Source of the DNA: Archangium gephyra | GTDB lineage: Bacteria; Myxococcota; Myxococcia; Myxococcales; Myxococcaceae | Assembly: GCF_001027285.1 (NCBI RefSeq) | Contig: NZ_CP011509.1 | Location: 4,472,501 to 4,536,500, forward strand | DNA: 64,000 bases | Direction: 5' to 3' | Shown here: positions 1,044 to 62,657 of the stretch, piece by piece | Position numbering within the stretch: position 1 is the first letter of the stretch | Layout: each line of letters starts with the position of its first letter | Notes under the pieces: generated by a model | Told to the model about the DNA's origin: nothing | Seen by the model: only the letters and a program-made list of their open reading frames with translations | The model's database searches: none | Made by a program: the position numbers and the translations under genes

Positions 1044-4000
1044 TCAGGGCCTGGAACGGCTGTGGGGAGGCCTGAGCCGGCGCCTGCCAAGAGACAGGAC
1101 CAGCGCCAGCAATGCCCAGGAGGCAGGGGAGGCGGGGGCTGTGGTGCAACTCCAGCCGTAATGGCTCTTCTTGAGGAAGAAAGAATACTCTTCTGAGAGT
1201 TGGCTGATATTCCCGATGGCATCAGTGGCTCGGGCTTTGACTTCGTGGTGCCCGGGTCCTAGCGCGGTGGTCAAGACAAAGCTCCAATTCCCCTCCTCGT
1301 CCACGACGATGTCTGTACCTGGAATTTCCTTGCCATCCAACCACACTGTCACCGTGCTACCAGCCTCCGCCAGGCCGCCAAGGGTTGGCTTCGGATTGCT
1401 GATGAAGGACCCATCCTCAGGTGCTGTCACCCTGGGCGGTGCCGGGGCCTCCGTGTCCACGGTGAAGTCACTGGGCTCGGATTGGGGACTGACATTGCCT
1501 GCTTCATCCATGGCGGTGGCCTGGGCCTGGTGGCGTCCCTCCGTCAGTGCGGTGCTCGGGGTGAAGCTCCAGTTCCCCTGCGGGTCCGTCCTGGTTGTTG
1601 TCCCCGCCATGGCGCCATCCAGCCACACCGTCACCGTGCTGCCGAGCTCCGCGGTGCCGCGAATGGCTGGCCGCGGGTTGTTGACGAAGGCACCCTCCGC
1701 AGGTGCGGTCACCTTGGGCATCTCCGGCGCATCCATGTCCACGGTGAAGTTGCGGGGCTCGGATGAAGGGCTGACATTGGCCACCGCATCCGTAGCGATA
1801 GCTGTCACCTGGTGGTTGCCTGAAGTCAGCGGGGTGGTCAGCTCTATCATCCATTTCCCATCCTCGGCGGTCTCGGTTGTCCCCGCCATGGCGCCATCCA
1901 GCCACACCCGCACCGTGTTACGGGCCTCCGCGGTGCCGTGAATGGCTGGCTTCGGGTTGTTGATGAAGGCTCCCTCCGCGGGTGCTGTCACCTTGGGGGC
2001 TGCCAGATGAGGCCCATCCACGCGTACCATCTGCCCACCGTGTAGGGCATTCGCCATCACGGAAAGGATGTAGTAGCCGTTCGGCACGTTCGGCGTCTGT
2101 ACATTGACTTCCGTGTCAGAGAACGAATCCAGGGCCGTTACACGTGTCATTGCCCCTCCCTCCAGCGCAAACAGGCCAACCAGGGGGAAATTCGTAGCGG
2201 AACTCTGGGTATTTCCGCTGCTCGCCTCCGAGAGACCTCGTAAGCGGCTGCCAGTGATGCGGAGTTTTTGAGCCCGTTGTTGCGTGGCGGGTGGAGTGAT
2301 ATCGGGACGCCACATCTGGAGAGCTCTCGTGTCGTCGTACAGCTCCGCGCTGGCCAGGGAGCCAGTGATGCTCCCTCCACCGGAGACCAGCACCCTGCCC
2401 GAGGGCAACAGCGTCGCCGTGTGATTGCCACGGGCCGTGGTCAGGGGGGCCGTGGGGCTCCACGCCCCCGTGGCCGGGTCGTATACCTCCGCGTTGTTGA
2501 GAGGCGCGGAGCTCGAGTTCCAGCCACCGGAGACCAGCACCGTGCCGGAGGGCAACAGCGTCGCCGTGTGACTCTCGCGGGCCGTGGTCAGAGGGGCCGC
2601 AGGGCTCCACGCCCCCGTGGCCGGGTCGTATACCTCCGCGCTGGACAGGGAGCCACTCGAGTTCCAGCCACCGGAGACCAGCACCGTGCCGGAGGGCAAC
2701 AGCGTCGCCGTGTGACTCTCGCGGGCCGTGGCCAGGGCGGCCGTGGGGCTCCACGTCCGCGTGGCCGGGTCATACACCTCCGCGCTCGCGAGGCGGCCAC
2801 CCGGGCCAGAGCCACCCGAGACGAGCACCTTGCCGGAGGGCAACAGTGTTGCCGTGTGGCCGTAGCGGGCCGTGGTCAGGGGGGCCGTGGAGCTCCATTT
2901 CCCCGTGGCCGGTTCGTAAACCTCCGCGCTATGGAGGAAGCCATTTGGACCAAGGCCACCGGAGACCAGGACCGCGCCGGAGGGCAACAGCGTCGCGGTG
3001 TGTCTGTAGCGGGCCGTGGTCAGAAAACCCGTGGGGTTCCACCCCCCCGTGGCCGGGTCGTACACCTCCGCGCTGTTGAGGGGGCCACTCGAGTTCCAGC
3101 CACCGGAGACCAGCACCGTGCCGGAGGGCAACAGCGTCGCCGTGTGTTTGTAGCGGGCCGTGGTCAGAAAACCCGTGGGGCTCCACGTCCCCGTGGCCGG
3201 GTCGTACACCTCCGCGCTGTTGAGGGGGCCACTTGAATTCCTGCCACCGGAGAGCAGCACCTTGCCGGAGGGCAGCAGCGTCGCCGTGTGGTTGTCGTTG
3301 CGGGCCGTGGCCAGCGGGGCCGCGGGACTCCACGCCCCCGTGGCCGGGTCGTACACCTCCGTGCTGGCGAGAAGGCCTCCCGAGCCAGAGCCACCGGAGA
3401 CCAGCACCTTGCTGGAGGGCAGCAGCGTCGCCGTGTGGTTGGTGCGGGCCGAGGTCAGGGGACCCGTGGGGCTCCACTTCCCCGTGGCCGGGTCGTACAC
3501 CTCCGCGCTGGCCAGGACGCCACTCGGGACATCCCCACAGGAGAGCAGCACCTTGCCGGAGGGCAACAGCGTCGCCATGTGGTTGGCGCGGGCCGAGGTC
3601 AGCGAGCCCGTGGGGCTCCACTTCCCCGTGGCCGGGTCGTACACCTCCGCGCTGGCCAGGGAGCCACTCGAGTCCTCTCCACCGGAGAGCAGCACCTTGC
3701 CGGAGGGCAGCAGCGTCGCCGTGTGTCTGTAGCGAGTCGTGGCCAGGGGAGCCGTGGGGCTCCACGTCCCCGTGGCCGGGTCGTACACCTCCGCGCTGGC
3801 GAAGATGCTGCCAGCGCCAGCGCCACCGGAGAGCAGCACCTTGCCGGAGGGCAACAGCGTCGCCGTGTGGCTGTAGCGGGTCGTGAGCAGAGGGCCCGTG
3901 GGGCTCCACGTCCCCGTGGCCGGGTCGTACACCTCCGCGCTGGCGAATGAGGAGCCACTTGGAAAAAGGCCACCGGAGAGCAGCACCTTGCCGGAGGGCA

Positions 4001-5537
4001 ACAGCGTCGCCGTGTGGCTATAGCGGGCCGTGGTCAGAGAGCCCGTGGGGCTCCACGTCCCCGTGGCCGGGTCGTACACCTCCGCGCTGTTGAGGGGGCC
4101 ACTTGTAACCAGGCCACCGGAGACCAGTACCTTGCCGGAGGGCAACAGCGTCGCCGTGTGGCTGTAGCGGGCAGTGTTCAGCGAGCCCGTGAGGCTCCAC
4201 TTCCCCGTGGCCGGGTCGTACACCTCCGCGCTGTTGAGGGGGCCACTTGCGTTCCTGCCACCGGAGAGCAGCACCTTGCCAGAGGGCAACAGCGTCGCCG
4301 TGTGACTTCTGCGAGCCGCGTTCAGAGAGTTCGTGGGGCTCCACTCCCCCATGGGGTTCCGCTCCCCCGTCACCGGGTTGTATAGCTCCGCGCTGGCGAG
4401 GCGGCCGGTTGAGCCCTCCCCACCGGAGATCAGCACCGTGCCGGAGGGCAGCAACAGTGTCGCCGTGTGGTTGGCGCGGGCCGTGGCCATGGGGGCCGTG
4501 GGGCTCCACGTCCCCGTAGCCGGGTCGTACACATCCGCACTGGCGAGGTAGCCATCAGGGCCAAAGCCACCCGAGACCAGCACCTTGCCGGAGGGCAACA
4601 GCGTCGCCGTGTGGGAATAGCGGCCCTTGGCCAGAGAGTCCGTGGGGCTCCACGCTCCCGTGGCCGGGTCGTACACCTCCACGGTGTAGAGGGAGCCATC
4701 TGCGCTCCAACCACCGGAGAGCAGCACCTTGCCGGAGGGCAACAGCGTCGCCGTGTGGCTGTAGCGGGCAGTGGCCAGAGAGCCCGTGGGGCTCCACGTC
4801 CCCGTGGCCGGGTCGTACACCTCCGCGCTGTTCAAGAAGCTGACCTCGTTCTGCCCACCGGAGACCAGCACCTTGCCGGAGGGCAACAGCGTCGCCGTGT
4901 GGGAATAGCGGCCCTTGGCCAGAGAGCCCGTGGGGCTCCACTCCCCCGTGGCCGGGTCGTAGACCTCCACCCTGTTGATGACGCGGCCTGAGCCATCCCA
5001 GCCACCGGAGACCAGCACCTTGCCGGAGAGCAACAGCGTCGCCGTATGGCCGGCGCGGGCCGTGCTCAGAGAGGCCGTGGGGCTCCACGTTCCCGAGGCC
5101 GGGTCGTACTCCTCCACGCTGCCCAATGATGTGCTTGAATTCTTGCCGCCGGAGACCAACACCTTGCCGGAGGACAACGGTGTCGCCGTGTGCCAGGAAC
5201 GAGGCGTGGACAGACGGCCCGTGAGGCTCCACTTCCCTGTGGCCGGGTCGTACACCTCCGCGCTGTCGAGGTAGCCATCAGGGCTCTGCCCACCGGAGAC
5301 CAGCACCTTGCCGGAGGACAACGGTGTCGCCGTGTGGTGATAACGGGCAATGGTCAGAGGGTCCGTGGGGCTCCACTGCTCACCAGTCGTGGCCAGGAGG
5401 GCCTTGGGTTCAAGCCAGTCCTGGTGCAACGTTTCGTCTCCGCTCTGCGATACCTTGCCGCAGGCGATGCATAGCAGCGCCGAGGTCATGGCCAGTCTGG
5501 CAATTGCTGCCACCCCAAGCCTGGAGATAGAGGTCAT
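1044..5537 (-). CDS. Large kelch-repeat lipoprotein with Ig-like domains and MYXO-CTERM-like tail
   Basis: The 1497-residue protein starts at ATG 5537, just upstream of a lipoprotein signal (LLCIAC) and with aaggaa 5' of the start. The frame is open to 5729, but that extension lacks signal-peptide character. Residues of roughly 50-1080 form 21 tandem kelch-type repeats of about 48 residues. The unit reads LxTARxxHTATLLPSGKVL, then VSGG, then AEVYDPATGxWSPT, and 21 equals three seven-bladed propellers. A linker and three Ig-like domains with TAPAEGAF-type starts and VWLDG cores follow. The end is a Cys-containing hydrophobic segment plus Arg-rich tail (SLGRRRLRP), like MYXO-CTERM sorting tails. 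A surface adhesion or carbohydrate-binding role is inferred. The 144-bp units are similar enough to recombine. Confidence 0.85.
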   Translation of the reverse strand: MTSISRLGVAAIARLAMTSALLCIACGKVSQSGDETLHQDWLEPKALLATTGEQWSPTDPLTIARYHHTATPLSSGKVLVSGGQSPDGYLDSAEVYDPATGKWSLTGRLSTPRSWHTATPLSSGKVLVSGGKNSSTSLGSVEEYDPASGTWSPTASLSTARAGHTATLLLSGKVLVSGGWDGSGRVINRVEVYDPATGEWSPTGSLAKGRYSHTATLLPSGKVLVSGGQNEVSFLNSAEVYDPATGTWSPTGSLATARYSHTATLLPSGKVLLSGGWSADGSLYTVEVYDPATGAWSPTDSLAKGRYSHTATLLPSGKVLVSGGFGPDGYLASADVYDPATGTWSPTAPMATARANHTATLLLPSGTVLISGGEGSTGRLASAELYNPVTGERNPMGEWSPTNSLNAARRSHTATLLPSGKVLLSGGRNASGPLNSAEVYDPATGKWSLTGSLNTARYSHTATLLPSGKVLVSGGLVTSGPLNSAEVYDPATGTWSPTGSLTTARYSHTATLLPSGKVLLSGGLFPSGSSFASAEVYDPATGTWSPTGPLLTTRYSHTATLLPSGKVLLSGGAGAGSIFASAEVYDPATGTWSPTAPLATTRYRHTATLLPSGKVLLSGGEDSSGSLASAEVYDPATGKWSPTGSLTSARANHMATLLPSGKVLLSCGDVPSGVLASAEVYDPATGKWSPTGPLTSARTNHTATLLPSSKVLVSGGSGSGGLLASTEVYDPATGAWSPAAPLATARNDNHTATLLPSGKVLLSGGRNSSGPLNSAEVYDPATGTWSPTGFLTTARYKHTATLLPSGTVLVSGGWNSSGPLNSAEVYDPATGGWNPTGFLTTARYRHTATLLPSGAVLVSGGLGPNGFLHSAEVYEPATGKWSSTAPLTTARYGHTATLLPSGKVLVSGGSGPGGRLASAEVYDPATRTWSPTAALATARESHTATLLPSGTVLVSGGWNSSGSLSSAEVYDPATGAWSPAAPLTTARESHTATLLPSGTVLVSGGWNSSSAPLNNAEVYDPATGAWSPTAPLTTARGNHTATLLPSGRVLVSGGGSITGSLASAELYDDTRALQMWRPDITPPATQQRAQKLRITGSRLRGLSEASSGNTQSSATNFPLVGLFALEGGAMTRVTALDSFSDTEVNVQTPNVPNGYYILSVMANALHGGQMVRVDGPHLAAPKVTAPAEGAFINNPKPAIHGTAEARNTVRVWLDGAMAGTTETAEDGKWMIELTTPLTSGNHQVTAIATDAVANVSPSSEPRNFTVDMDAPEMPKVTAPAEGAFVNNPRPAIRGTAELGSTVTVWLDGAMAGTTTRTDPQGNWSFTPSTALTEGRHQAQATAMDEAGNVSPQSEPSDFTVDTEAPAPPRVTAPEDGSFISNPKPTLGGLAEAGSTVTVWLDGKEIPGTDIVVDEEGNWSFVLTTALGPGHHEVKARATDAIGNISQLSEEYSFFLKKSHYGWSCTTAPASPASWALLALVLSLGRRRLRPPHSRSRP

Positions 5538-6342: not shown

Positions 6343-8193
6343 ATGAAGATGCAGTCGATATGCGGGCTGGCGCTCGCCGCGTTGGTGTTGTTCGGATGCC
6401 CGGGGGAACAGACGCAGCCGGAGGAGGAGGCCAGCCTGGCCTTTACCACCCAGCCCTCGAACACCCCCGCGGGCTCCCCGCTCACCGTGAGCGTCACCGT
6501 GCGGGATGCGCAGGGCAATGCGCTCTCGGATTCCAGTGCCGCCGTGACGCTGGGCCTCGCGGCCAATCCGGCCGGTGGCGAGTTGCTCGGCACCACCACG
6601 GTGAACGCCACCCAGGGCGTGGCCACCTTCTCCCTCCACATCGACAAGGTGGGCACCGGCTATGCGCTCTCCGCCAGCGCCTCGGGCCTGAACGGCGCCA
6701 CCAGCGAGACCTTCGAGATCCTGCCTCCCCAGGTCGCCGGCACCCGGACGTTGCACTACGTCACCGACACCGGGGAGGTGGCGCGGCCGTCCGACCTCTC
6801 CAGCGCCCAGGTGGGGGCGTACGTCGCCGAGGAGGATGGCGGCTTCACCTATTACGCGGGCACGGGCACCGACGCGGGCACCTTCTCCATCCCGGGCGTC
6901 CCGCTCCAGAGCTACTACCTGCGGTTCGGCAACGACTACGTGCTCACCTCGGAGCGCGACCCCGACCTGTCCACCTATCAGCAGGGCCGCCCGGACGTGC
7001 AGCGCGGCGACGCCGGGACGCTGGTGCACACCACGCTGACCGGCATGAGCCCGTGGCAGAACGATCACAGCGGCAACTCGGACGACCTCCAGATGTACTC
7101 GTCGAACGCGGGTGCGTGGTTCATCCAGTTGCACTTGTACGATACGAATGGCTTCAGCAGCCCGGCCATTCCCGACCCCGGCGACACCACGTTCGACCAG
7201 CTGACCGACTATGGGCGCATCGCGGGGAGCGGCTTCCCCCCGAAGCTGGTGGATGCGGCCAAGGGGGACACGGCTGTCTTCACCCAACTCTCCACGCATG
7301 ACGCGGGAGTCGTCGATGATGCCGGCGTCTCGATGGGGTTCACCTATCAGTCCGTCGCGAGGGTCTTCACCACCTCGAGCCTGACCGTGCGTGACGGCCA
7401 GACCTCGAACGTCTCTGGCGTGCTCTCCTCCGTGCCGCAGGACCAGAGCTACGCGGTGGACTGGAAGGTGGACGAGGGCACTCCGGGCTCGTTCGGGAGC
7501 TACCGCACGGCGGTGAACCCCCACGCGCTCCTCAACTACAACAACTTCTACCTGGACGTGATCCCCACGGCGGCCTACGGCTCCTATGCGTCCACGCCGG
7601 ACCTCGTGTCGTACGTCGGCGGCCAGCCGGATCATTCGTTCCAATTCGTCTACGGCAACCCGTTTCCGGCGAGCTACGCGAAGTTCCTCGTTGCGGAGAC
7701 GCTCTTCTCCGTGCCCTACACGTTCTCCAAGCCGGAGGGCGGGACGGCCCAAACGACCGTCAACGGCCGCATCGTCACCCGTGAGCTGGTGAGCGGCCCG
7801 CGGGTCGAGCCGCTGGTGCCGGGGGTGAGCCCGGTCCGCGAGCCCCAGTTGGACGGCGCGAGCGCCTGGCTCGACCAGTCCATCCATCCCACGCCGCTCG
7901 TCTCGTGGACGCCGCCCGCGGTGGGCACCCCGACGCACTACGAGGTCCGCTTCACCGAGCTCGTCTACAACCCCGCCACGGGTCGCCTCTCGCGCGGCTC
8001 CGGCGTGGGACGGGTGCTGACGGGGGGCACCCGCGTGCAGGTTCCGCCCGGTCTCCTGCGGTCCGGCAAGCACTACTTCATGAGCATCACCGCCCACCAG
8101 CAGCCGGGCCACTCGGTCCAGAGCGCGCCGTACCTGCTCCAGTGGCCGCACTATTACGCGGAAGCCCTTAGTGGGCTGCTCACCGTGCCGTAG
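6343..8193 (+). CDS. Large secreted lipoprotein with Ig-like and Fn3-like regions
   Basis: A 616-residue protein with ATG at 6343 preceded by gaggggg. The signal peptide ends in LVLFGC, a lipobox. Residues of about 28-130 form a bacterial Ig-like (invasin-type) domain (FTTQPSNTPAGSPLTVSV, then VRDAQGNAL). The middle, about 140-500, is a Tyr/Gly-rich region without a family I recognise. The last 100 residues (SWTPPAVGTPTHYEVRF to the end) look like a fibronectin-III-type beta sandwich. It is probably anchored to the outer membrane or exported. It sits between two transposase remnants, which suggests a variable accessory locus. The function is unknown. Confidence 0.8.
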   Translation: MKMQSICGLALAALVLFGCPGEQTQPEEEASLAFTTQPSNTPAGSPLTVSVTVRDAQGNALSDSSAAVTLGLAANPAGGELLGTTTVNATQGVATFSLHIDKVGTGYALSASASGLNGATSETFEILPPQVAGTRTLHYVTDTGEVARPSDLSSAQVGAYVAEEDGGFTYYAGTGTDAGTFSIPGVPLQSYYLRFGNDYVLTSERDPDLSTYQQGRPDVQRGDAGTLVHTTLTGMSPWQNDHSGNSDDLQMYSSNAGAWFIQLHLYDTNGFSSPAIPDPGDTTFDQLTDYGRIAGSGFPPKLVDAAKGDTAVFTQLSTHDAGVVDDAGVSMGFTYQSVARVFTTSSLTVRDGQTSNVSGVLSSVPQDQSYAVDWKVDEGTPGSFGSYRTAVNPHALLNYNNFYLDVIPTAAYGSYASTPDLVSYVGGQPDHSFQFVYGNPFPASYAKFLVAETLFSVPYTFSKPEGGTAQTTVNGRIVTRELVSGPRVEPLVPGVSPVREPQLDGASAWLDQSIHPTPLVSWTPPAVGTPTHYEVRFTELVYNPATGRLSRGSGVGRVLTGGTRVQVPPGLLRSGKHYFMSITAHQQPGHSVQSAPYLLQWPHYYAEALSGLLTVP

Positions 8194-8410
8194 CGCCCGG
8201 GAGCCTCGCGGCGCCGGAGGATGCCTGGAAGCCAGGCCTCCTCCCCGGCCGGGCACATCTCTGGAGGGGACCCGAGCGCGGCGACGGGTGCGCTCGGGCC
8301 GGTTCCGGCCCGACGTGATACGAGGGTGGCATGTCGCCATCCTCCAAGCAGGGGCGGAGCCGGGGCTGGAGGAGAGCCCCGCCTTTGCCGCGACGGTGGA
8401 GGAGCGGAGG

Positions 8411-8626
8411 AAGGAGCCCACACCCCGTTTGGACCAGGCCGGGCTGCTGCGCAGGACGTTCGCCCTGGAGGTGTTCGCGTGCTTGAGGTGTGGAGGCAGG
8501 CGGCGGGTGTTGGCGTACGTGAAGGGAGCAGGAGGGGTGAGAGCGATTCTGGAGCACCTGGGGTTGCCCACGGCGAGTGCGCACCTGGCCCCTGCGCGAG
8601 GGCCGCCCCAGAGCGCGTGGTGTTGA
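8411..8626 (+). pseudogene. C-terminal remnant of an IS91-family-type transposase
   Basis: The frame ending at 8626 encodes LDQAGLLRRTFALEVFAC, then CGGRRRVLAYV and ILEHLGLPTA. This is the conserved tail of IS91-like transposases (a short Cys-rich motif, then RVLA and ILxHLGLP). One expected Cys appears changed (ACLRC instead of ACPRC), and no catalytic Tyr domain lies upstream: the preceding 200 bp in this frame are unrelated. It is a relic and not an active element. The call rests on motif recognition only. Confidence 0.6.
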
Positions 8627-8840
8627 AGCTCAAGCCGCCACAGCCAGCCAAGAGAGCCAGGCACCTGCCGCGCCCCTCCTGGGAAGGCGGCTGGGGTAGG
8701 CGTGTACCCCAAAGTGGCTGCGCGGCCTCTCCACCGGCTTGGCACACAGCCCACATGTCCCCCTCTGCGGTCGTCCTCGGCCCTCCTTGGCCCCTCTGCA
8801 CCAGCCCTCTCCCTCAACCTCAACGGCCTCTATCCTGCCT

Positions 8841-52049: not shown

Positions 52050-55000
52050 TCAGGCCCGCGAGCGACGGCGCCGGGTCGCCCCCAGCGCCAGCACGAGCAG
52101 GGCCATCAGCGGCGCCGAGGCATCGGCCGCGCTCGAGCAGCCGCAGCCACCCGGATCCGGCACATGCTGCCCGCCGTCTCCGCCATCCGTGCCGCCGTCT
52201 CCGCCGTCCGTGCCGCCCGACGAGAGCACCTTCACCGAGGTGGAGGCGCTCACCCCGTCGATCGTGCCGGTCACCGCGGTGGCGTAGTCACCCGCCACGC
52301 TGCTGGCGGTGAACACACCCTCCGAGGTGATGGAGCCAGCCTCGGGACGAGCGGTCCACGCCGGTACGCCGGAGCGCTGGTTGCCGTGGGCGTCCAGCGC
52401 GCGCGCGGTGAAGCGGACCGTGCCTCCGGTCCTCACCTCCGGTGCCAGCGGCGAGAGCTCCACGCGAGCCGTGGGGCCGGCCACCACCAGGACCTGGGCC
52501 ACGGCGGTGATGCCGCCGGTGCTCACGCGTACCGCCTCCGGGTAGCTCCCGGCCACGGTGCCCGCGGTGAAGGAGCCGTCGCCGTCGATCGTCCCCACCT
52601 CCGGCGTCGCGACGCTCCAGGTGAGCGGGGCGTCCACGCGGTTGCCGAACACGTCGAAGGCCTGGGCGGTGAAGCGCCGCACCTGGCCGGGCTCGAGCGT
52701 GACCTCCGTGGGCATCAGCTCGAGGCGGGAGACGGACCCGCTCTGGACGACGACGGTGGCGCTCGCCGTGAAGCCCGGGACCGCCGCCCGCACCGTGTCC
52801 GTGTACGTGCCAGCCGTGGAGCCCGCGGTGAACGCACCCGACGGCAGGATGCCGCCGCCGCCCGCCACCACGCTCCAGTCCGCGGAGACCGGAAGGGGGT
52901 TGCCGAAGCTGTCCGCGCCCTGGGCCGTGAAGGTCACCGTCCCGGCCGGGAGCAGCTCGACGCGCGCGGGAGTGACGGAGAGGGAGGCCAGCGGCCCGGG
53001 CAGCACGGTGAGGCTCGCGCTGGCGGACACGCCGCTCGCGCTCACCCGCAGGGTGTCGGCGTAGCTGCCCGCCGTGGTGCCCGCGGTGAACAACCCGGTG
53101 CCATTCACCGAGCCACCGCCGGACACCACCTCCCAGCTCACCGCCGGAGTCAGCGCGTTGCCGCACGTGTCGGCGCCCACCACCGAGAACTGCTTCGTCC
53201 CAGTGACGGCCACCTCGGCGGAGGCCGGGCTGAGGGAGAGCGTGGCCAGCGCGCCCGGCGTCACCGTGACGTTCGCCGTGGCGGACAGGCTCCCGAGCTG
53301 CGCCATCACCGCCGAGGGCAGGCTGCCCACGGAGCAAGGCGCTGTGTACTGACCCGCGGGGTTGATGGAGCCCGCGCCGCTCACCGTGCTCCACGTCACC
53401 GAGGGCGGGGGCAGCGCGTTACCGCACCGGTCCTCGGCGGAGGCGGTGAACGGGGTGGAGCCCTTGGCCGCCAGCGTGACGCTGGCGGGAGAGAGCGCCA
53501 GGGACGCGGCCGGGCCTGCGACGATGGTGACGTCCACGCTGCCGGAGATGCCCTCGGCGGTGGCCGTCACGGCCGCGGGAACGGTGGCCCGCGAGCACGC
53601 GACGGACAGCCGTCCGCTCGAGTCGATGCTGCCCGCGGACGTCAGGGCACTCCAGGTGAAGGCCACCTCGCTCACCTCCGCGCCCGTGGAGTCGAAGGCG
53701 CGGGCGGTGAAGGTGGCGGAGCCTCCCGCGGGCAGGGCCGAGGCGCTCGTGCTGGACACCTCCACCCGCGCGACGCGGCGGGAGAGCTCCACGCTCGTGG
53801 TGGCCTTCACGCCCTCCACCTCGACCTGGATGGCGTCCGAGTAGAAGCCGGGGACATTGCCCGCGGTGAACAGGCCGGTGCCGGTGATGGTGCCGGCGGA
53901 CGGGTGGGCCGACCAACCGCGCGGACTGGTGGCCAGCTCATTGCCGAAGGCATCCGTGGCCGTGGCGGTGAACTGCACCGTGCCACGGGTGGGCAGCGAG
54001 GGGCTGCCCGGCGCGAGGCTGACGCTCACGACGGGGCCCGGCTTCACCACCACGGTGGCCAGGGCGCTCATGCCCCCGGCGCTCACCCGGACGGTGTCGG
54101 TGTACGTGCCGGCCACGGTGCCCGCGGTGAAGGTGCCACCGGCGTTGATGGTGCCGCCGCCGCTGAGGATCTCCCAGGTGGGCAGGAGCGTCACCTCGTT
54201 GCCGTACTCATCCTGGCCCCGGACGGTGAAGGTCACGGACTCGCCCACGCCGAGCGAGGCCGACAGGGGGCTCAGCTCCAGCCTCGCCAGGGCACCGGGC
54301 TTGATGGTGACGGTGGCCAGGGCGGTGCGTCCGGCCGCCTCCGCGCGGATGACGTCCGTATAGGTACCGGCCAGGGTGCTCGCGGTGAAGTCACCCGTCT
54401 TGGAGTCGAGCGTTCCGGCCAGCGAGGACATCAGGCTCCAGGTGACCTCGTCCGTCCGGACGTTGCCGTGGACATCCAGCACCCGGGCGGTGAAGCGCAC
54501 CGTGCCGCCCGGAGCGAGCAGGGCGGGCGAGGGGCTCAGCTCGATCCGATCGGCGGGCCCGGGCACGACGGTGACGGTGGCGGTGGCCGACGCGCTGCCG
54601 GCCACGACGCGGACCGTGTTCGCATAGGTGCCGGCCACGGTGCCCGCGGTGAAGACACCCGAGGCGTCGATGGTGCCGCCCCCGCTGACAACCGACCACG
54701 TGGGATCGGCGGGGACCTCGTTGCCGAGCTCGTCACGCGCGATGACCGTGAAGGTCACCGTTCCCTTGGGCGCCACCGTGGGGGCGCTCGGCGAGAGCTC
54801 CAGCGAGGCGACCTCGCCACCCAGCACCGTGACGTCCGTCTGGGCCACCTTGGAGCCCGCGGTGGCCTGGATGGTGTTGGCGTAGAAGCCCGGAGCCGTG
54901 CCGGCGGTGAAGACGCCCGAGGTGCTGATGGTTCCGCCCCCGTTGACGACCGCCCAGGAGACGGTGTCCGTCCGGGTGTTGCCGCAGCTGTCGGTGGGCG

Positions 55001-58000
55001 TGGCGCTGAAGGTCTGAGAGCCGCCCTTCGCGAGCTTGGGGGACAGCGGCGAGAGGACGATCTTCGCGAGCGGGCCCGTGGAGACGAACACGTTCGCGGT
55101 GCCGGAGACGGCGCCCACGCGAGCGCTGACCGCGCCCGTGTAGTTCCCCGGCGAGCAGGTGGCGGTGTACTGGCCGGCGGAGGTGATGGTGCCGGTGCCG
55201 GGGGCGGTGCTCCAATCGATGGTGTCGCCGGTGCGGATGTTGCCGCAGCGATCCTTCACGGTGGTGAGGAAGAGGCGCGAGGCGCCGGCCTCGATCCCCG
55301 TCGCCGCGGGCGAGACGATGACCTGGGCCGCCGGGCCGGGAACGATGGTGACGTTCGCGCTGGCGCTCACGCCATTGGGACTGGTGGCGGTGACGGCCGA
55401 GGTGATGGTCGCGGGGGTGCAGGAGGCGGTCAGCACGCCATTGCCGTCGATGGTGCCGGCGGCGGACCTGGCGCTCCAGGTGAAGGCCACGTCGCTGATG
55501 GGGTTGCCCTCCGAGTTGTAGGCGCGGGCGATGAAGGCGGTGGTCCCGGAGGCGTCCACGGTGGTGCTGGCCGGAACGATCTGCACGGAGGTCACGGTCC
55601 TCTCGTCGTAGGGCAGGGCGCCGATGTCCGTGCCCGCGGTGCTGATGCGGCGGCAGGGCGAGGTGGCCTGCAGGTGGAAGTCGGAGGAAGAGACGAAGAG
55701 GGGGTTGGCGGAAATGCTGCTGGGACCCGCGGTAACGCCGGAGTAGTCGCTGGAGACGTTGTTCCACACGTCATTGTGGGAGAGCGTCACGGTGCCGGTG
55801 GAGGTGCCGGAGATGAAGCGGTAGACGCCGGTGTTGCCGTTGCTGGAGACGATGCTGTTCTGCAGCGAGAGGCTACCGGCGGTGCTGGAGACATAGACAC
55901 CGTAGGAGTTGTTGGAGACGACGGTGTTGTACTGGAGGTTGGCGGTGCCGCTGCTCACCTGGACGCCGTAGTTGGTGTTGGCGTGGGAGACGGTGTGGTC
56001 CATGGCCAGCGTGCCGTTGGAGCGGACGTAGGCGCCGGTGGAGTTACCGGTGAGGGTGCTGGAGGAGAGGGAGGCCGTGGTGCCGGAGTTGGTGACGTCC
56101 AGACCGTAGGTGGCATCGCGGATGAGGGCACCGGAGAGGGCGGTGGTGGTGCCCGCTTCCACGCGGATGCCGCGCCACCTGCCAGAGCCAGCGGTGGCGG
56201 CCTTGAAGGTGACGGGGCTGGAGTCGGTACCGAGCACCTGCAGGGAGCCGCGGGCGATGAGCTCCACCAGGCCCGTGTCGAGGCCGGACTGGAGCGCGTC
56301 GCTGGTGGAGACGGTGAAGGTGGTGCCCGGGGCGACGGTGACGGTGACACCGGTGGGAATGGTGAGGTCACCCGACAGGGTGTAGGCGCCCGAGAGGGTG
56401 GTGTTCTCGTGGATGGCACCCGCGAGGATGGGAGTGACATCTCCCGCGTAGGGCAGGGCGCCAATATCCGAGGACTTGTCGGAGGCGGCCTTGCGAGCGG
56501 GGGAGAGGGAGGTGAGGCGGAAGTTGGGGGAGGCGGTGGAGGTGGAGACGAAGAGCGGGTTGGCCGAGAAGCTGTTGGCGTCGGCGGTGACACCGGAGTA
56601 GTCGCCGGAGACGTTGTTCCACACGTCGTTGTGGGAGAGCGTCACGGTGCCGGTGGAGGTGCCGGAGATGAAGCGGTAGACGCCGGTGTTGCCGTTGCTG
56701 GAGACGATGCTGTTCTGCAGCGAGAGGCTACCGGCGGTGCTGGAGACGTAGACACCGTAGGAGCTGTTGGCGACGACGGTGTCGTACTGGAGATTGGCGG
56801 TGCCGCTGCTCACCTGGACGCCGTAGTTGGTGTTGGCGTGGGAGACGGTGTGGTCCATGACCAGCGTGCCACTGGAGCGGACATAGGCGCCGGTGGAGTT
56901 GCCGGTGAGGGTGCTGGAGGAGAGGCTGGCCGTGGTGCCGGAGTTGGTGACGTCCAGGCCGTAGGTGGCGTCGCGGATGAGGGCACCGGAGAGGGCGGTG
57001 GTGGTACCCGCCTCCACGCGGATGCCGCGCCACCTGCCGGAGCCAGCGGTGGCGGCCTTGAAGGTGACGGGACTGGAGTCGGTGCCGAGCACCTGCAGGG
57101 AGCCACGGGCGATGAGCTCCACCAGGCCCGTGTCGAGGCCAGACTGGAGCACGTCGCTGGTGGCGACGGTGAAGGTGGTGCCCGGGGCGACGGTGACGGT
57201 GACGCCGGTGGGGATGGTGAGGTCACCCGACAGGGTGTAGGCGCCCGAGAGGGTGGTGTTCTCGTGGATGGCACCCGCGAGGATGGGAGTGACATCCCCC
57301 GTGTAGGGCAGGGCGCCAATATCCGAGGACTTGTCGGAGGCAGCCTTGCGGGCAGGGGAGTAGGAGGTGAGGCGGAAGTTGGAGGAAGAGACGAAGAGTG
57401 GGTTGGCGGAGAAGCTGTTGGCGTCGGCGGTGACACCGGAGTAGTCGCCGGAGACGTTGTTCCACACGTCGTTGTGAGAGAGCGACACGGTGCCGGTGGA
57501 GGTGCCGGAGATGAAGCGGTAGACACCAGTGTTGCCGTTGCTGGAGACGATGCTGTTCTGCAGCGAGAGGCTACCGGCGGTGCTGGAGACGTAGACACCG
57601 TAGGAGCTGTTGGCGACGACGGTGTTGTACTGGAGGTTGGCGGTGCCGTTGCTCACCTGGACGCCGTAGTTGGTGTTGGCGTGGGAGACGGTGTGGTCCA
57701 TGACCAGCGTGCCGCTGGAGCGGACGTAGGCGCCGGTGGAGTTGCCGGTGAGGGTGCTGGAGGAGAGGGAGGCAGTGGTGCCGGAGTTGGTGACGTCCAG
57801 ACCGTAGGTGGCGTCGCGGATGAGGGCGCCGGAGAGGGCGGTGGTGGTGCCCGCTTCCACGCGGATGCCACGCCACTTGCCAGAGCCAGCGGTGGCGGCC
57901 TTGAAGGTGACGGGACTGGAGTCGGTGCCGAGCACCTGCAGGGAGCCACGGGCGATGAGCTCCACCAGGCCCGTGTCGAGGCCGGACTGGAGCACGTCGC

Positions 58001-59906
58001 TGGTGGCGACGGTGAAGGTGGTGCCCGGGGCGACGGTGACGGTGACACCGGTGGGAATGGTGAGGTCACCCGACAGGGTGTAGGCGCCCGAGAGGGTGGT
58101 GTTCTCGTGGATGGCACCCGCGAGGATGGGAGTGACATCTCCCGCGTAGGGCAGGGCGCCAATATCCGAGGACTTGTCGGAGGCGGCCTTGCGAGCGGGA
58201 GAAAGGGAGGTGAGGCGGAAGTTGGGGGAGGCGGTGGAGGTGGAGACGAAGAGCGGGTTGGCCGAGAAGCTGTTGGCGTCGGCGGTGACACCGGAGTAGT
58301 CGCCGGAGACGTTGTTCCACACGTCGTTGTGGGAAAGCGTCACGGTGCCGGTGGAGGTGCCGGAGATGAAGCGGTAGACGCCGGTGTTGCCGTTGCTGGA
58401 GACGATGCTGTTCTGCAGCGAGAGGCTACCGGCGGTGCTGGAGACGTAGACACCGTAGGAGCTGTTGGCGACGACGGTGTCGTACTGGAGATTGGCGGTG
58501 CCGCTGCTCACCTGGACGCCGTAGTTGGTGTTGGCGTGGGAGACAGTGTGGTCCATGACCAGCGTGCCGCTGGAGCGGACATAGGCGCCGGTGGAGTTGC
58601 CGGTGAGGGTGCTGGAGGAGAGGCTGGCCGTGGTGCCGGAGTTGGTGACGTCCAGGCCGTAGGTGGCGTCGCGGATGAGGGCACCGGAGAGGGCGGTGGT
58701 AGTGCCCGCCTCCACGCGGATGCCGCGCCACCTGCCGGAGCCAGCGGTGGCGGCCTTGAAGGTGACGGGGCTGGAGTCGGTGCCGAGCACCTGCAGGGAG
58801 CCGCGGGCGATGAGCTCCACCAGGCCCGTGTCGAGGCCAGACTGGAGCACGTCGCTGGTGGCGACGGTGAAGGTGGTGCCCGGGGCGACGGTGACGGTGA
58901 CGCCGGTGGGGATGGTGAGGTCACCCGACAGGGTGTAGGCGCCCGAGAGGGTGGTGTTCTCGTGGATGGAGCCAGCGAGGACGGGGGAGACATCTCCCGC
59001 GTAGGGCAGGGCGCCAAGGTCCGAGATCTTGTCGGAGGCGGCCTTGCGAGCGGGGGAGAGGGAGGTGAGGCGGAAGTTGGGGGAGGCGGTGGAGGTGGAG
59101 ACGAAGAGGGGGTTGGCGGAGAAGCTGTTGGCGTCGGCGGTGACACCGGAGTAGTCGCCGGAGACGTTGTTCCACACGTCGTTGTGGGAGAGCGTCACGG
59201 TGCCGGTGGAGGTGCCGGAGACGAAGCGGTAGACGCCGGTGTTGCCGTTGCTGGAGACGATGCTGTTCTGCAGCGAGAGGTTGCCGGCGGTGCTGGAGAC
59301 GTAGACACCGTAGGAGTTGTTGGAGACGACGGTGTTGTACCGGAGGTTGGCGGTGCCGCTGCTCACCTGGACGCCGTAGTTGGTGTTGGCGTGGGAGACG
59401 GTCTGGTACATGACCAGCGTGCCGCTGGAGCGGACATAGGCGCCGGTGGAGTTGCCGCTCAGGGTGCTGGTGCCCAGGATGGCGGAGGTGCCGGAGTTGG
59501 TGACATCCAGACCGTAGGTGGCGTCGCGGATGAGGGCACCGGCGAGGGTGGTGAGGGTGCCTGCCTCCACGCGGATGCCACGCCACCTGCCGGAGCCAGC
59601 AGTGGTGGCCTTGAAGGTGACGGGGGCGATGTCGGTGCCCTGCACCTGCAGGTTGCCCTGGACGATGAGCTCCACCAGGGTCGTATCGAGCCCCGAGCTC
59701 ATGGCATCCGAGGTGTTGGCGATGACCTGAACACCGGGCTCGATCGTCAGCGTCGCCCACGAGGGGACGGTCACGTCACCCGTCATCGTGTAGGGACTGC
59801 CGGCCGCGGTCCACGTCGTGTCACCGACGAGTGCTCCCTGAACGGGGGTGCCCGCCGAGGCGGCTCCCGCCGCCAACAGCATCACCACCCATGCGCCTCG
59901 TAGCAT
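52050..59906 (-). CDS. Giant surface protein: five beta-helix repeats, 13 Ig-like domains, MYXO-CTERM
   Basis: 2618 residues from ATG 59906 (gagg upstream), with signal peptide MLRGAWVVMLLAAGAASA. Residues of about 25-1430 are five tandem units of 281-285 residues, each a right-handed parallel beta-helix (GNSTGAYVRSSGTLVM, SYGVYVSSTAGSLSLQNS, HNDVWNNVSGDYSGV). Four copies are almost identical at DNA level, with period 855 or 843 bp. Residues of about 1430-2570 are 13 Ig-like domains (LELSPxxxTV, then TFTVxxxDxxGN, then GTYTDTVRV). The end, GGCGCSSAADAS plus a hydrophobic helix and RRRRSRA, is a MYXO-CTERM sorting tail. Likely a long surface fibre or adhesin; Asn/Ser/Thr-rich, glycosylation possible. 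Confidence 0.9.
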   Translation of the reverse strand: MLRGAWVVMLLAAGAASAGTPVQGALVGDTTWTAAGSPYTMTGDVTVPSWATLTIEPGVQVIANTSDAMSSGLDTTLVELIVQGNLQVQGTDIAPVTFKATTAGSGRWRGIRVEAGTLTTLAGALIRDATYGLDVTNSGTSAILGTSTLSGNSTGAYVRSSGTLVMYQTVSHANTNYGVQVSSGTANLRYNTVVSNNSYGVYVSSTAGNLSLQNSIVSSNGNTGVYRFVSGTSTGTVTLSHNDVWNNVSGDYSGVTADANSFSANPLFVSTSTASPNFRLTSLSPARKAASDKISDLGALPYAGDVSPVLAGSIHENTTLSGAYTLSGDLTIPTGVTVTVAPGTTFTVATSDVLQSGLDTGLVELIARGSLQVLGTDSSPVTFKAATAGSGRWRGIRVEAGTTTALSGALIRDATYGLDVTNSGTTASLSSSTLTGNSTGAYVRSSGTLVMDHTVSHANTNYGVQVSSGTANLQYDTVVANSSYGVYVSSTAGSLSLQNSIVSSNGNTGVYRFISGTSTGTVTLSHNDVWNNVSGDYSGVTADANSFSANPLFVSTSTASPNFRLTSLSPARKAASDKSSDIGALPYAGDVTPILAGAIHENTTLSGAYTLSGDLTIPTGVTVTVAPGTTFTVATSDVLQSGLDTGLVELIARGSLQVLGTDSSPVTFKAATAGSGKWRGIRVEAGTTTALSGALIRDATYGLDVTNSGTTASLSSSTLTGNSTGAYVRSSGTLVMDHTVSHANTNYGVQVSNGTANLQYNTVVANSSYGVYVSSTAGSLSLQNSIVSSNGNTGVYRFISGTSTGTVSLSHNDVWNNVSGDYSGVTADANSFSANPLFVSSSNFRLTSYSPARKAASDKSSDIGALPYTGDVTPILAGAIHENTTLSGAYTLSGDLTIPTGVTVTVAPGTTFTVATSDVLQSGLDTGLVELIARGSLQVLGTDSSPVTFKAATAGSGRWRGIRVEAGTTTALSGALIRDATYGLDVTNSGTTASLSSSTLTGNSTGAYVRSSGTLVMDHTVSHANTNYGVQVSSGTANLQYDTVVANSSYGVYVSSTAGSLSLQNSIVSSNGNTGVYRFISGTSTGTVTLSHNDVWNNVSGDYSGVTADANSFSANPLFVSTSTASPNFRLTSLSPARKAASDKSSDIGALPYAGDVTPILAGAIHENTTLSGAYTLSGDLTIPTGVTVTVAPGTTFTVSTSDALQSGLDTGLVELIARGSLQVLGTDSSPVTFKAATAGSGRWRGIRVEAGTTTALSGALIRDATYGLDVTNSGTTASLSSSTLTGNSTGAYVRSNGTLAMDHTVSHANTNYGVQVSSGTANLQYNTVVSNNSYGVYVSSTAGSLSLQNSIVSSNGNTGVYRFISGTSTGTVTLSHNDVWNNVSSDYSGVTAGPSSISANPLFVSSSDFHLQATSPCRRISTAGTDIGALPYDERTVTSVQIVPASTTVDASGTTAFIARAYNSEGNPISDVAFTWSARSAAGTIDGNGVLTASCTPATITSAVTATSPNGVSASANVTIVPGPAAQVIVSPAATGIEAGASRLFLTTVKDRCGNIRTGDTIDWSTAPGTGTITSAGQYTATCSPGNYTGAVSARVGAVSGTANVFVSTGPLAKIVLSPLSPKLAKGGSQTFSATPTDSCGNTRTDTVSWAVVNGGGTISTSGVFTAGTAPGFYANTIQATAGSKVAQTDVTVLGGEVASLELSPSAPTVAPKGTVTFTVIARDELGNEVPADPTWSVVSGGGTIDASGVFTAGTVAGTYANTVRVVAGSASATATVTVVPGPADRIELSPSPALLAPGGTVRFTARVLDVHGNVRTDEVTWSLMSSLAGTLDSKTGDFTASTLAGTYTDVIRAEAAGRTALATVTIKPGALARLELSPLSASLGVGESVTFTVRGQDEYGNEVTLLPTWEILSGGGTINAGGTFTAGTVAGTYTDTVRVSAGGMSALATVVVKPGPVVSVSLAPGSPSLPTRGTVQFTATATDAFGNELATSPRGWSAHPSAGTITGTGLFTAGNVPGFYSDAIQVEVEGVKATTSVELSRRVARVEVSSTSASALPAGGSATFTARAFDSTGAEVSEVAFTWSALTSAGSIDSSGRLSVACSRATVPAAVTATAEGISGSVDVTIVAGPAASLALSPASVTLAAKGSTPFTASAEDRCGNALPPPSVTWSTVSGAGSINPAGQYTAPCSVGSLPSAVMAQLGSLSATANVTVTPGALATLSLSPASAEVAVTGTKQFSVVGADTCGNALTPAVSWEVVSGGGSVNGTGLFTAGTTAGSYADTLRVSASGVSASASLTVLPGPLASLSVTPARVELLPAGTVTFTAQGADSFGNPLPVSADWSVVAGGGGILPSGAFTAGSTAGTYTDTVRAAVPGFTASATVVVQSGSVSRLELMPTEVTLEPGQVRRFTAQAFDVFGNRVDAPLTWSVATPEVGTIDGDGSFTAGTVAGSYPEAVRVSTGGITAVAQVLVVAGPTARVELSPLAPEVRTGGTVRFTARALDAHGNQRSGVPAWTARPEAGSITSEGVFTASSVAGDYATAVTGTIDGVSASTSVKVLSSGGTDGGDGGTDGGDGGQHVPDPGGCGCSSAADASAPLMALLVLALGATRRRRSRA

Positions 59907-60023
59907 TTGTACACACCCCTCTTGAGAATCCGGGGAGTGCTCTAAATCAGACAAAGCGCGAATGGCAAGCCGCGCCGCCAGTGTGGGCGGCCGAGCGGTG
60001 ACTCCGTACGGCGAGGCCGTGCG

Positions 60024-60931: not shown

Positions 60932-61094
60932 CCGGTGCTCCTGGGGCCGCGTGCAGCCAGCCTTCCGTCCGCGATGTCACGTCGCGGCTGCTGACGTTAC
61001 CCATTGAAGAACGATGCAGTACGAGGTCTGCCTGCGGGCCTCCCGACCTCGTCTGCCTCTGCCGTGCAGGTGGCGGCGGCTCCAGGAGCACCGG
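60932..61094 (+). ncRNA. Predicted retron msr-msd non-coding RNA
   Basis: The first 19 bases (60932-60950) are complementary to the last 19 (61076-61094) with a single G-U pair. This is the long a1/a2 repeat that closes a retron RNA. After a1 come two AGC triplets (60955-60957 and 60959-60961), where the 2'-5' priming G is expected. An msr-type hairpin ccgcga/tcgcgg (60969-60987, 7-nt loop) follows. Nearer a2 lies a 12-bp hairpin with one bulge (61016-61028 with 61045-61056; gcag and acgaggtc arms), suitable as the msd fold. The unit ends 24 bp before the reverse transcriptase ATG. A msDNA of roughly 60-70 nt is inferred; the fold is by eye. Confidence 0.72.
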
Positions 61095-61118
61095 TTTCCT
61101 CCTCGCCGGGTACAGCGC

Positions 61119-62543
61119 ATGAACCTCGCCAGCCTCCTCCTCGAGCTCAAGCCCCTGCTGGCGGACCCCGACACCCACTTCGAGCGCATCACGGAGTTGC
61201 TGGAGCGTCACCAGGGGCTCGCCGAGTACGAGGTGGCGCGCTTCTACGTGAGCCGTCACTGGCAGGCGCCCGTCGAGCGCAAGCTGCGCAGCGTGGACCC
61301 GCGCGAGCGGCTCAAGGGCGTGCGGCACCTCCCGCTGCTCTTCTCCAGCACCCTGGCGGCCCGGCTGCTCCGCCCGCGCGTGAAGGACCCCGACAACCGG
61401 GTGGCCCAGAGCGCGCGCGCCGCGGTGCGCAAGCTGGGGCTCGCGGACGTGGCGCCGCCGGATCTCCGGGGCGACCCTCGCTACCGCCATGGCGCCGTGG
61501 GCGGGTGGAACCCCACCGGCTGGAACTTCGGCCTCTTCGCGAACGAGCTTCGCGGCTACAGGTCCAGGCGGGTGAAGCGCCCGCCGCCCACCTCGGGCGA
61601 GCTGCCCGCGCTGCGCACCCGGGCCGAGGTGGCGGAGCTGGTGGGCGTGGAGGAGTCCGCGCTGGACGCGTTGATGCGTCCGGGCACGGAGGCGGGCTCG
61701 GGGTATGTGGACTTCGAGGTCCCCAAGCGCTCGGGTGGGGTGCGCCGCATCTCGGCGCCGCGCCAGGCGCTCAAGGAGGTGCAGCGGGCGCTCCTCGACA
61801 AGGTGCTCGCGCGCATGACGCCGCACCCGGCCGCGCACGGCTTCATCGAGGGCCGCTCCACGGTGAGCAACGCCGAGCCCCACGTGGGCGCCACGGCGGT
61901 GGTGCGGGTGGACCTCGAGGACTTCTTCCCCACGGTGCACTACCGCCGGGTGAAGGGCCTCTTCCTGTCGCACGGCTATGGGGACGAGGTGGCCGGAGTG
62001 CTCGCCGGGCTCACCACGCACCGCGCGAAGCTGCCGGACGGGACGGTGGTGTGGCCAGGGGTGCTGCCGCAGGGCGCGCCCACGTCGCCGGCCATCGCCA
62101 ACCTCGTCTGCCGGCGCATGGATGCGCGCCTCACCGCGCTGGCCGGGAAGTTCGGCGCCACCTACACCCGCTACGCGGACGACCTGTCCTTCTCCTTCCG
62201 CGCGCCTCCCGAGCGCCTGGGCCGCTTCTTCTGGTGGCTCAACGCCATCCTCCAGCAGGAGGGCTTCACCGAGAACGGTGCCAAGCGGCGGGTGATGCGC
62301 CAGGGCTCGCGCCAGCGGGTGACGGGCCTCACGGTGAACCAGAAGGTCTCCATCCCCCGCGAGGAGCGGCGCCGCTTCAAGGCCATCCTCGCCAACTGCC
62401 GTCAGCACGGGGTGGCCTCGCAGGCCCGGGGCCGGCCGGACTTCGAGCGCTGGCTGGAGGGCTACGCGGCCTATGTCCGCATGGTCCACCCGGAGCTGGG
62501 CGCCCGCTGGCAGGGCGAGGTGAAGGCGCTGCTCGGCCGATGA
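61119..62543 (+). CDS. Retron reverse transcriptase
   Basis: 474 residues. The fingers/palm region begins near residue 190 (YVDFEVPKRSGGVRRI). Retron marks are all present: region X NAEPH (251-255, NAxxH), catalytic Asp265 in VRVDLEDFFPTV, PQGAPTSP (317-324), YADD (352-355) and region Y VTGLTVN (401-407). Residues 1-160 are a helical extension (PDNRVAQSARAAVRKLGL is HEAT-like) without named similarity. ATG 61119 is chosen because the longer frame from 61014 would start inside the predicted msr-msd RNA. The enzyme should copy the msd part of that RNA into branched RNA-DNA. Most retrons studied are anti-phage toxin-antitoxin systems; no classical effector gene is next to it. Confidence 0.93.
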   Translation: MNLASLLLELKPLLADPDTHFERITELLERHQGLAEYEVARFYVSRHWQAPVERKLRSVDPRERLKGVRHLPLLFSSTLAARLLRPRVKDPDNRVAQSARAAVRKLGLADVAPPDLRGDPRYRHGAVGGWNPTGWNFGLFANELRGYRSRRVKRPPPTSGELPALRTRAEVAELVGVEESALDALMRPGTEAGSGYVDFEVPKRSGGVRRISAPRQALKEVQRALLDKVLARMTPHPAAHGFIEGRSTVSNAEPHVGATAVVRVDLEDFFPTVHYRRVKGLFLSHGYGDEVAGVLAGLTTHRAKLPDGTVVWPGVLPQGAPTSPAIANLVCRRMDARLTALAGKFGATYTRYADDLSFSFRAPPERLGRFFWWLNAILQQEGFTENGAKRRVMRQGSRQRVTGLTVNQKVSIPREERRRFKAILANCRQHGVASQARGRPDFERWLEGYAAYVRMVHPELGARWQGEVKALLGR

Positions 62544-62615
62544 CGGCCCGGCGCCCGCCGACTCCACGTGTAGGGTCGGGTACACGACGGCGGACGTAAT
62601 ACCGACTTCACTGGA

Positions 62616-62645
62616 CAGGTCCTCTGAGGTAGTACGCGGGACCTG
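62616..62645 (+). other. Hairpin upstream of the alkyltransferase-like gene
   Basis: caggtcc and ggacctg pair around a 16-nt centre in the 114-bp gap between the retron reverse transcriptase and the next gene. No T-tract follows. It may be a weak terminator or a leader structure. Confidence 0.35.
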
Positions 62646-62657
62646 ACTGGAGAAGAC

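Follow-up and report, generated by a model that had tools for sequence, protein, structure and literature searches.

A retron with a HEAT-like domain on its reverse transcriptase and an apparently deleted LRR partner gene in Archangium gephyra

Retrons produce a small DNA joined to RNA and generally serve in defence against viruses. They were first found in myxobacteria, and in studied retrons the complex of reverse transcriptase (RT), ncRNA and RT-DNA restrains a toxic effector (PMC12548924). A review from 2019 described the role of retrons, those of myxobacteria included, as poorly understood (PMC6868368). The same review places the priming guanosine of retrons directly after the stem and records a CAGC at the priming site of Mx162 and Sa163 (PMC6868368). 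Here we compare with these systems a locus found in a stretch of 64,000 nucleotides of Archangium gephyra (the window). The genome is a single contig of 12,489,432 bases, and its genus is shared by the genomes that we label G045 and G043.

A sequence-only reading of the window had proposed a complete candidate retron, in which a 163-nt segment closed by a 19-bp inverted repeat with one G-U pair stands immediately before an RT gene. Our analysis recovered this segment at 60932-61094, with its a1 arm pairing with its a2 arm as described and the RT ATG lying 24 nt beyond a2. The AGC triplets reported after the first arm are there (60955-60957 and 60959-60961), as is the bulged 12-bp hairpin near the second (61016-61019 plus 61021-61028 with 61045-61056, T61020 being bulged). 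The segment folds at -93.9 kcal/mol, compared to -69.8 +/- 4.1 for shuffled sequences (z -5.8), and none of 200 shuffles was as good. The features of this RNA are:

60932 to 60950, plus strand: a1 arm of the msr-msd RNA (fold; in its core of 14 pairs, 95.2% of the cells are paired and 9 pairs changed on both sides)
60956 to 60959, plus strand: inner extension of the a1-a2 stem, which pairs with 61071-61074 and stops right before the priming G (97% of the cells paired)
60958 to 60961, plus strand: CAGC motif with the predicted branching guanosine, G60960 (alignment of the copies; the CAGC/TAGC context is as in PMC6868368)
60970 to 60986, plus strand: msr hairpin CGCGATG-TCA-CGTCGCG, 7 of 7 pairs invariant in 33 sequences, conserved rather than covarying
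61016 to 61056, plus strand: msd hairpin of 12 bp with one bulge, from which the stem of the msDNA would be copied (double-sided changes in 8 of 12 pairs)
61059 to 61069, plus strand: small conserved hairpin CTGC-CGT-GCAG at the 3' end of the msd (0 pairs changed on both sides)
61076 to 61094, plus strand: a2 arm (fold and covariation)

The predicted primer is G60960, the G of an AGC triplet where the stem formed by a1 and a2 ends on its inner side. Its placement follows from a change of C-G to U-A at 60958:61072, just before the AG, which occurs in three sequences (both L073 copies and that of L052). Most copies carry CAGC at this site, and three loci, L073, L052 and L091, carry TAGC; note that the L091 motif lies one alignment column off and was scored as unpaired. 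The first templated base would be about 61070, and the predicted msDNA would measure about 55-65 nt. The RNAalifold consensus pairs 60953-60962 differently (41 pairs with 18 changed on both sides, versus 44 and 20 in the structure drawn here), so the pairing drawn at the inner junction is tentative.

Covariation of the arms across relatives had been proposed as a check, and it was found. Among 33 distinct copies of the ncRNA, 95.8% of the 1443 cells are paired in the structure drawn, and 20 of the 44 pairs changed on both sides; these changes involve 73 cells versus a shuffled mean of 14, with none of 500 shuffles as high. Covarying pairs occur in the core of the a1-a2 stem, in its inner extension and in the msd hairpin. 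When the partners were slid, 36-47% of the cells were paired, a control that is biased in favour of the structure because the latter was taken from the window fold and from inspection of the alignment; the shuffles are free of this bias but ignore relatedness. The three outermost pairs counted in the relatives (60934-60936) are not conserved, the core arm of the family being 14 bp, and pair 60947:61079 is unpaired in 10 of the 33 sequences. Note that the alignment holds 33 of 38 distinct copies: left out were the L040 copy and four from Polyangium, all nearly the same as rows that it does hold, and two L050 copies fell under the search threshold. In two Polyangium copies with a long msd, that part is misaligned, which lowers the counts there. 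An Rfam search of the window returned no family at gathering score, and the two lncRNA families seen at a relaxed threshold (E 1.4 and 2.4) were dismissed as noise.

The ncRNA also travels with the RT. It was matched within 1.2 kb before the RT in 33 of 36 loci, most matches ending 21-47 nt before the start, and farther upstream in the other three, all from Polyangium. Across the order the model matches 30 of 145 genomes, every one of which carries the HEAT-type RT described below. An msr-msd RNA with compensatory changes lies upstream of the RT, which is the mark of a retron.

61119 to 62543, plus strand: retron RT of 474 aa (RT_XIII, 374.5 bits; RVT_1, 70 bits; tree; PDB folds)

This ORF contains the three hallmarks that had been read from the translation, as NAEPH at aa 251, YADD at 352 and VTG at 401. 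Its start is shared by 34 aligned relatives (L049, cut by a contig end, stands outside this alignment, and the L091 sequence misses its first Met solely through the coordinates chosen). A longer ORF, 61014-62543, was rejected since it overlaps the msd and the relatives align from 61119. Among the best 25 PADLOC matches listed, the retron profiles score 149-374 bits, compared to 46 bits for the group II profile, whose cut-off is 300. The top profile, RT_XIII, is matched over positions 107-423 of 469, the RT part only, and the NCBIfam retron models reach 203-219 bits, under their own cut-offs. In the PDB fold search, ranks 1 to 18 are all retron RTs, and by sequence the nearest RTs of solved structure are those of Ec67 and Ec86. 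The placement in an RT tree that had been suggested was carried out with 88 RT domains: the window groups with 22 relatives in a clade of their own (SH-aLRT 99), separate from the Mx162-type (100) and Mx65-type (100) clades. This is a quick tree with DGR enzymes absent, rooted on one group II RT (L006) on a long branch; L006 is a group II RT by score (405 bits versus a cut-off of 300) and passes the group II maturase model.

Grouping with group II intron or DGR enzymes had been named as an outcome that would speak against a retron. Membership among the group II RTs failed on both profile score and tree position, and membership among the DGR RTs, judged by the fold search alone, failed as well, the first DGR chain appearing at rank 33, behind the 18 retron chains. 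That the RT belongs to a group II intron, a DGR or some other system, with a hairpin upstream by chance, is close to inconceivable: it can call on general RT similarity and nothing beyond, and it is contradicted by the covariation and the tree, and also by the retron profiles, the fold search and the co-occurrence of ncRNA and RT. The RT belongs among the retron RTs, far from group II, and the retron interpretation of the sequence-only reading is supported.

By its sequence relationships the RT defines a separate, mostly myxobacterial clade. It is carried by 31 of the 145 genomes of the order, nearly full length in 29, cut by a contig end in one and at 48% identity in G131. An obvious question is whether the locus could be an ortholog of the classical Mx162/Sa163 retron, which we take to be represented by loci chosen on RT length. 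Like that retron it is myxobacterial, has CAGC at the priming site and finds its best profile in RT_XIII, with which the Mx162-type RTs score 512 bits. However, the two clades are separate (99 and 100), the identity to six Mx162-type RTs is 38-40%, the window's genome has its own Mx162-type RT (L084), and none of the five Mx162-type loci searched matches the ncRNA model. Orthology is thus highly improbable.

The same genome holds another retron-like RT (L083) and a frame-broken one of a third type (L085). The latter lies in two pieces (L085 3754-4926 and 3768-3922), broken shortly after YADD, and at its upstream end there is a weak match (E 0.02) to the ncRNA model of the window's retron. Two sites of this genome, L006 and L007, match a group II RT with equal scores.

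The RT is fused to an N-terminal extension:

61119 to 61583, plus strand: HEAT-like helical domain (aa 1 to about 116) and a poorly modelled linker, fused to the RT (predicted model; HEAT_2 in relatives)

In the model (pTM 0.56), aa 1-116 are helical with pLDDT mostly 78-90, and aa 117-153 fall under 50. HEAT_2 was recognised in 11 of 24 family members (best 2.3e-7); the window's own copy gave no Pfam match for this region. A search of 195 genomes from the phylum returned the domain 31 times, always at the window-type RT (31/31), although one of these matches is a 30-residue fragment at a contig end. Searches of phages, plasmids and viral contigs returned relatives of the RT domain, and among the matches listed (30 of 33, 25 of 121 and 80 of 399) none begins before aa 120.

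In most relatives the gene order, as read from their sequences, is ncRNA, HEAT-RT and LRR partner. The RT is followed by an LRR gene in 26 of the 31 RT-bearing genomes of the order, and in all 26 the start of the partner overlaps the RT stop (ATGA). The partner is close in 25 of the 31 genomes, with 319-328 aa and LRRs; these 25 proteins score 371-534 bits with the partner profile, and across the 145 genomes each abuts the window-type RT. The next-best match in the order, at 195 bits, is an unrelated LRR paralog. Note that the profile was built from the close partners themselves and that 15 candidates per genome were scored, so distant partners lacking an RT could have been missed. G131 (L091) has a diverged partner (76 bits), also with the ATGA overlap. 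In Plesiocystis (L052) a diverged LRR partner of 99 bits lies at 7684-8757 on the minus strand, about 200 nt past the RT, on the opposite strand and convergent with it. None of the 25 close partners was found without the RT, while the RT stands without a partner in 5 of the 31 genomes; the claim that partners never occur alone is weakened by the diverged G131 and L052 proteins, which score below unrelated paralogs.

The partner of L064 passes TIGR02996 (35.8 bits, cut-off 29) and LRR_6, and a comparison with the STM4015 family gave 69.8 bits, under the cut-off of 275. PADLOC, run on the partner of a relative, returned just PtuA at E 0.037. The predicted model is confident (pLDDT 95.6) and was likened to the LRR arcs of NOD2, NLRP proteins and ribonuclease inhibitor. 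No toxic or catalytic domain was recognised in the profile and fold searches; the label of effector is thus a guess, and a sensor or an adaptor fits equally. The DNA downstream of the partner falls into 8 groups without mutual similarity at the threshold used. Only this downstream half was considered, because the clustering of the upstream context was too lax and chained unrelated loci.

In the window the partner is missing, and its place is taken by a scar:

62540 to 62657, plus strand: deletion scar, with the ATGA start overlap kept and the partner ORF (about 1 kb in relatives) missing

Starting 6 nt past the RT stop, 108 nt of the window can be aligned ungapped to L055, where the alignment begins about 25 nt past the end of the partner, so the gene was removed almost exactly. 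From the alignments, the RNA and the RT of the window are intact and the partner gene is cleanly lost. The earlier description of the retron as complete consequently holds for the RNA plus RT and fails for the system, since the partner of most relatives is deleted here. That no classical effector gene stands beside the retron in the window was borne out: the effector or partner gene, for which a candidate exists in 26 of the 31 RT genomes of the order, is absent, and neither the RT N-terminus nor any of the three flanking genes has a PADLOC match. To leave the defence logic open was fair from one window.

The five genomes with RT and without partner are that of the window, G045, G044, G081 and G082. 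At the partner site G045 has another ORF, glutathione-S-transferase-like by eye, and G044 a 27-aa remnant; by locus, a different ORF stands where the partner would be at L054, and a remnant of 27 aa at L056. In the four Polyangium loci no partner was seen within 6 kb after the RT, nor in the 2.3 kb examined after the RT of L050. On the RT tree, and taking the partner as ancestral, this pattern reads as at least five losses of the partner. The Archangium loci share their order, SDR, retron, partner if present and ATL (alkyltransferase-like) gene, except that the SDR is unmatched in two of the five loci and an amidohydrolase in one. The ATL gene was considered as a partner and rejected: it follows the retron in 5 of 5 Archangium loci and is unmatched in 25 others, in a comparison displaying matches at E 1e-8 and above 40% identity. 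Elsewhere in the window, a 2,634-aa ORF (52050-59954, minus strand) contains in its first half several near-identical repeats of about 285 aa, by eye.

Could the locus be a decaying leftover, functionless since the partner went and too young to show it? The deletion in the window, the other ORF at L054 and the remnant at L056 would suit this, as would the dS of only 0.11 between the RT of the window and that of L037, both without partner. Against it, the RNA helices and the RT motifs are intact, and the RT-domain dN/dS of this pair, 0.12, is no looser than in the partner-keeping Archangium and G083 pairs (0.14-0.26). Over the whole RT the values are 0.18 for window versus L037 and 0.24-0.36 for three partner-keeping pairs. 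We regard a leftover as improbable. Note that the partner may have disappeared from the window and from L037 in two separate, recent events, in which case dN/dS need not reflect life without it.

Some relatives carry more than one ncRNA. Two complete copies, 34-45 nt apart, precede one RT in four Polyangium loci and in L073, compared to the single copy of the window:

L045 2817-3201, L046 1378-1764, L047 2160-2545 and L053 4351-4736: tandem ncRNA pairs (ncRNA model matches)
L073 8446-8809, minus strand: tandem ncRNA pair (ncRNA model matches)
L046 4859-5932, L047 4816-5931 and L053 4840-5937: Rpn-like ORF between the ncRNA pair and the RT (Transposase_31 and DUF4351 in L053, the locus covered by the Pfam test)
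L045 4827-5324, L046 7482-7982, L047 7481-7975 and L053 7437-7934: conserved protein of about 166 aa with hydrophobic stretches (open reading frames)

Across the Polyangium species each copy keeps 93-98% identity, but within the pair identity is down to 69-73%, so the two were probably both present before these species diverged and have been retained since. The two ncRNAs of L073 are 89% identical. At three of the Polyangium loci the pair is located 1.3-4.5 kb upstream of the RT, and the Rpn-like ORF stands in this interval. A planctomycete MAG, L050, gave two weak ncRNA matches (E 0.0008 and 0.04). After the RT, each of the four Polyangium loci has the protein of about 166 aa, whose hydrophobic stretches are long and which in L053 had no Pfam or PADLOC match; it is a possible alternative partner.

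A solo ncRNA copy (149 bits) was seen in genome G083, at L114 5239-5401 on the minus strand, with no RT match in 11 kb. Next to it, the ORF at 3578-5092 (minus strand) encodes a PNP_UDP_1 phosphorylase protein, scored as an effector by PADLOC, and about 2 kb away in the other direction there is an ORF that looks integrase-like by eye. This copy may be what remains of a retron after the loss of its RT, or an RNA that acts in trans.

Our preferred reading, which we consider rather probable, is that the locus is a retron of a separate RT clade in which the LRR protein acts as an effector or recruiter restrained by the RT-msDNA, and that this partner was deleted in the window. By homology with the studied retrons, the 60932-61094 transcript would fold and the RT would prime on the 2'-OH of G60960, copying from about 61070 leftward through the 61016-61056 hairpin. 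The product would be a branched msDNA, about 55-65 nt long, from which the RT does not detach. The LRR protein, with its TIGR02996 helical N-terminus and LRR arc, would be the effector or an effector-recruiting subunit, kept inactive by the RT-msDNA, probably via the HEAT domain, for as long as no phage disturbs either the msDNA or the RT. The window's locus should still make msDNA, in this case without a cis-encoded response. The comparison establishes the conserved RNA structure, the retron RT, the linkage of the partner and its repeated loss; we infer the priming, the msDNA, the formation of the complex, the restraint of the partner and the phage trigger. The repeated loss of the partner, together with the fact that close partners were never found without the module, is what one would predict for a subunit that on its own is harmful or of no use. 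By analogy, such behaviour fits the studied retrons; it does not prove the LRR protein to be a toxin.

A different explanation is that RT, HEAT domain and msDNA are self-sufficient, with HEAT as the sensor or effector or with the msDNA in a housekeeping role, and that the LRR gene is an optional accessory. RT and RNA do stand without a partner in five genomes of the order and in the four Polyangium loci, the RT is under constraint (shown for Archangium pairs only), and the HEAT-like domain occurs only within the window-type RT. However, an ATGA overlap in 26 of 26 partner-bearing genomes exceeds what one would expect of a loose accessory, and we hold self-sufficiency to be doubtful, if worth keeping in mind. 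Equally speculative is a bolder reading, in which the HEAT-RT with one or two different msDNAs would guard an NLR-like LRR receptor or trigger that is not an enzyme, paired msDNAs (strongly diverged in Polyangium) would widen the sensing, and Archangium would have shed the LRR protein while keeping the RT-msDNA for a role independent of the partner.

The conserved, RT-tied LRR partner is a testable subunit, and the Archangium strains with and without it at the same locus are natural controls. The two diverged ncRNAs before one RT would allow a direct test of several msDNA baits per retron.

How does the locus compare with the known systems? As occurs with Mx162 and Sa163, from Myxococcus xanthus and Stigmatella aurantiaca, it is myxobacterial, its RT has an N-terminal extension and RT_XIII is its best PADLOC profile; the priming-site CAGC is likewise shared (PMC6868368). 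It differs from the Mx162 type in its RT clade and in its N-terminal part, which is unalignable (matches start at query aa 159-190), and its arms span 163 nt around a short msd, whereas those of the Mx162-type L084 span 280 nt around a 25-bp inner stem. With the loci that we presume to be of the Mx65 type it shares a compact msr-msd of similar size (the arms of L078 span 181 nt) and the presence of an N-terminal extension; unlike their RTs, that of the window has an intact NAxxH, a separate clade and a different best profile. The accessory proteins of PADLOC type XIII are ARM and WHSWIM, and PADLOC found neither beside the window RT, among the three flanking genes.

The RT fold is that of Ec86/Eco1 and Ec67/Eco2, the closest solved structures, but the effectors differ from the LRR protein: that of Ec86/Eco1 is a nucleoside deoxyribosyltransferase. 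That of Ec67/Eco2 is a Toprim fusion (PMC12405507). Among the TIGR02996/LRR proteins, which the L064 partner fits, the best paralog elsewhere in the order stays at 195 bits, compared to the 371-534 bits of the close partners. In PADLOC and in the portions of the searched literature available to us, we found no description of the HEAT-RT/LRR arrangement, the tandem ncRNAs or the pattern of loss; the RT clade may already be listed in the retron classification of Mestre and colleagues, which lies outside that literature. The retron itself is of a known kind, classical in myxobacteria, and it is the partner and its loss that merit follow-up.
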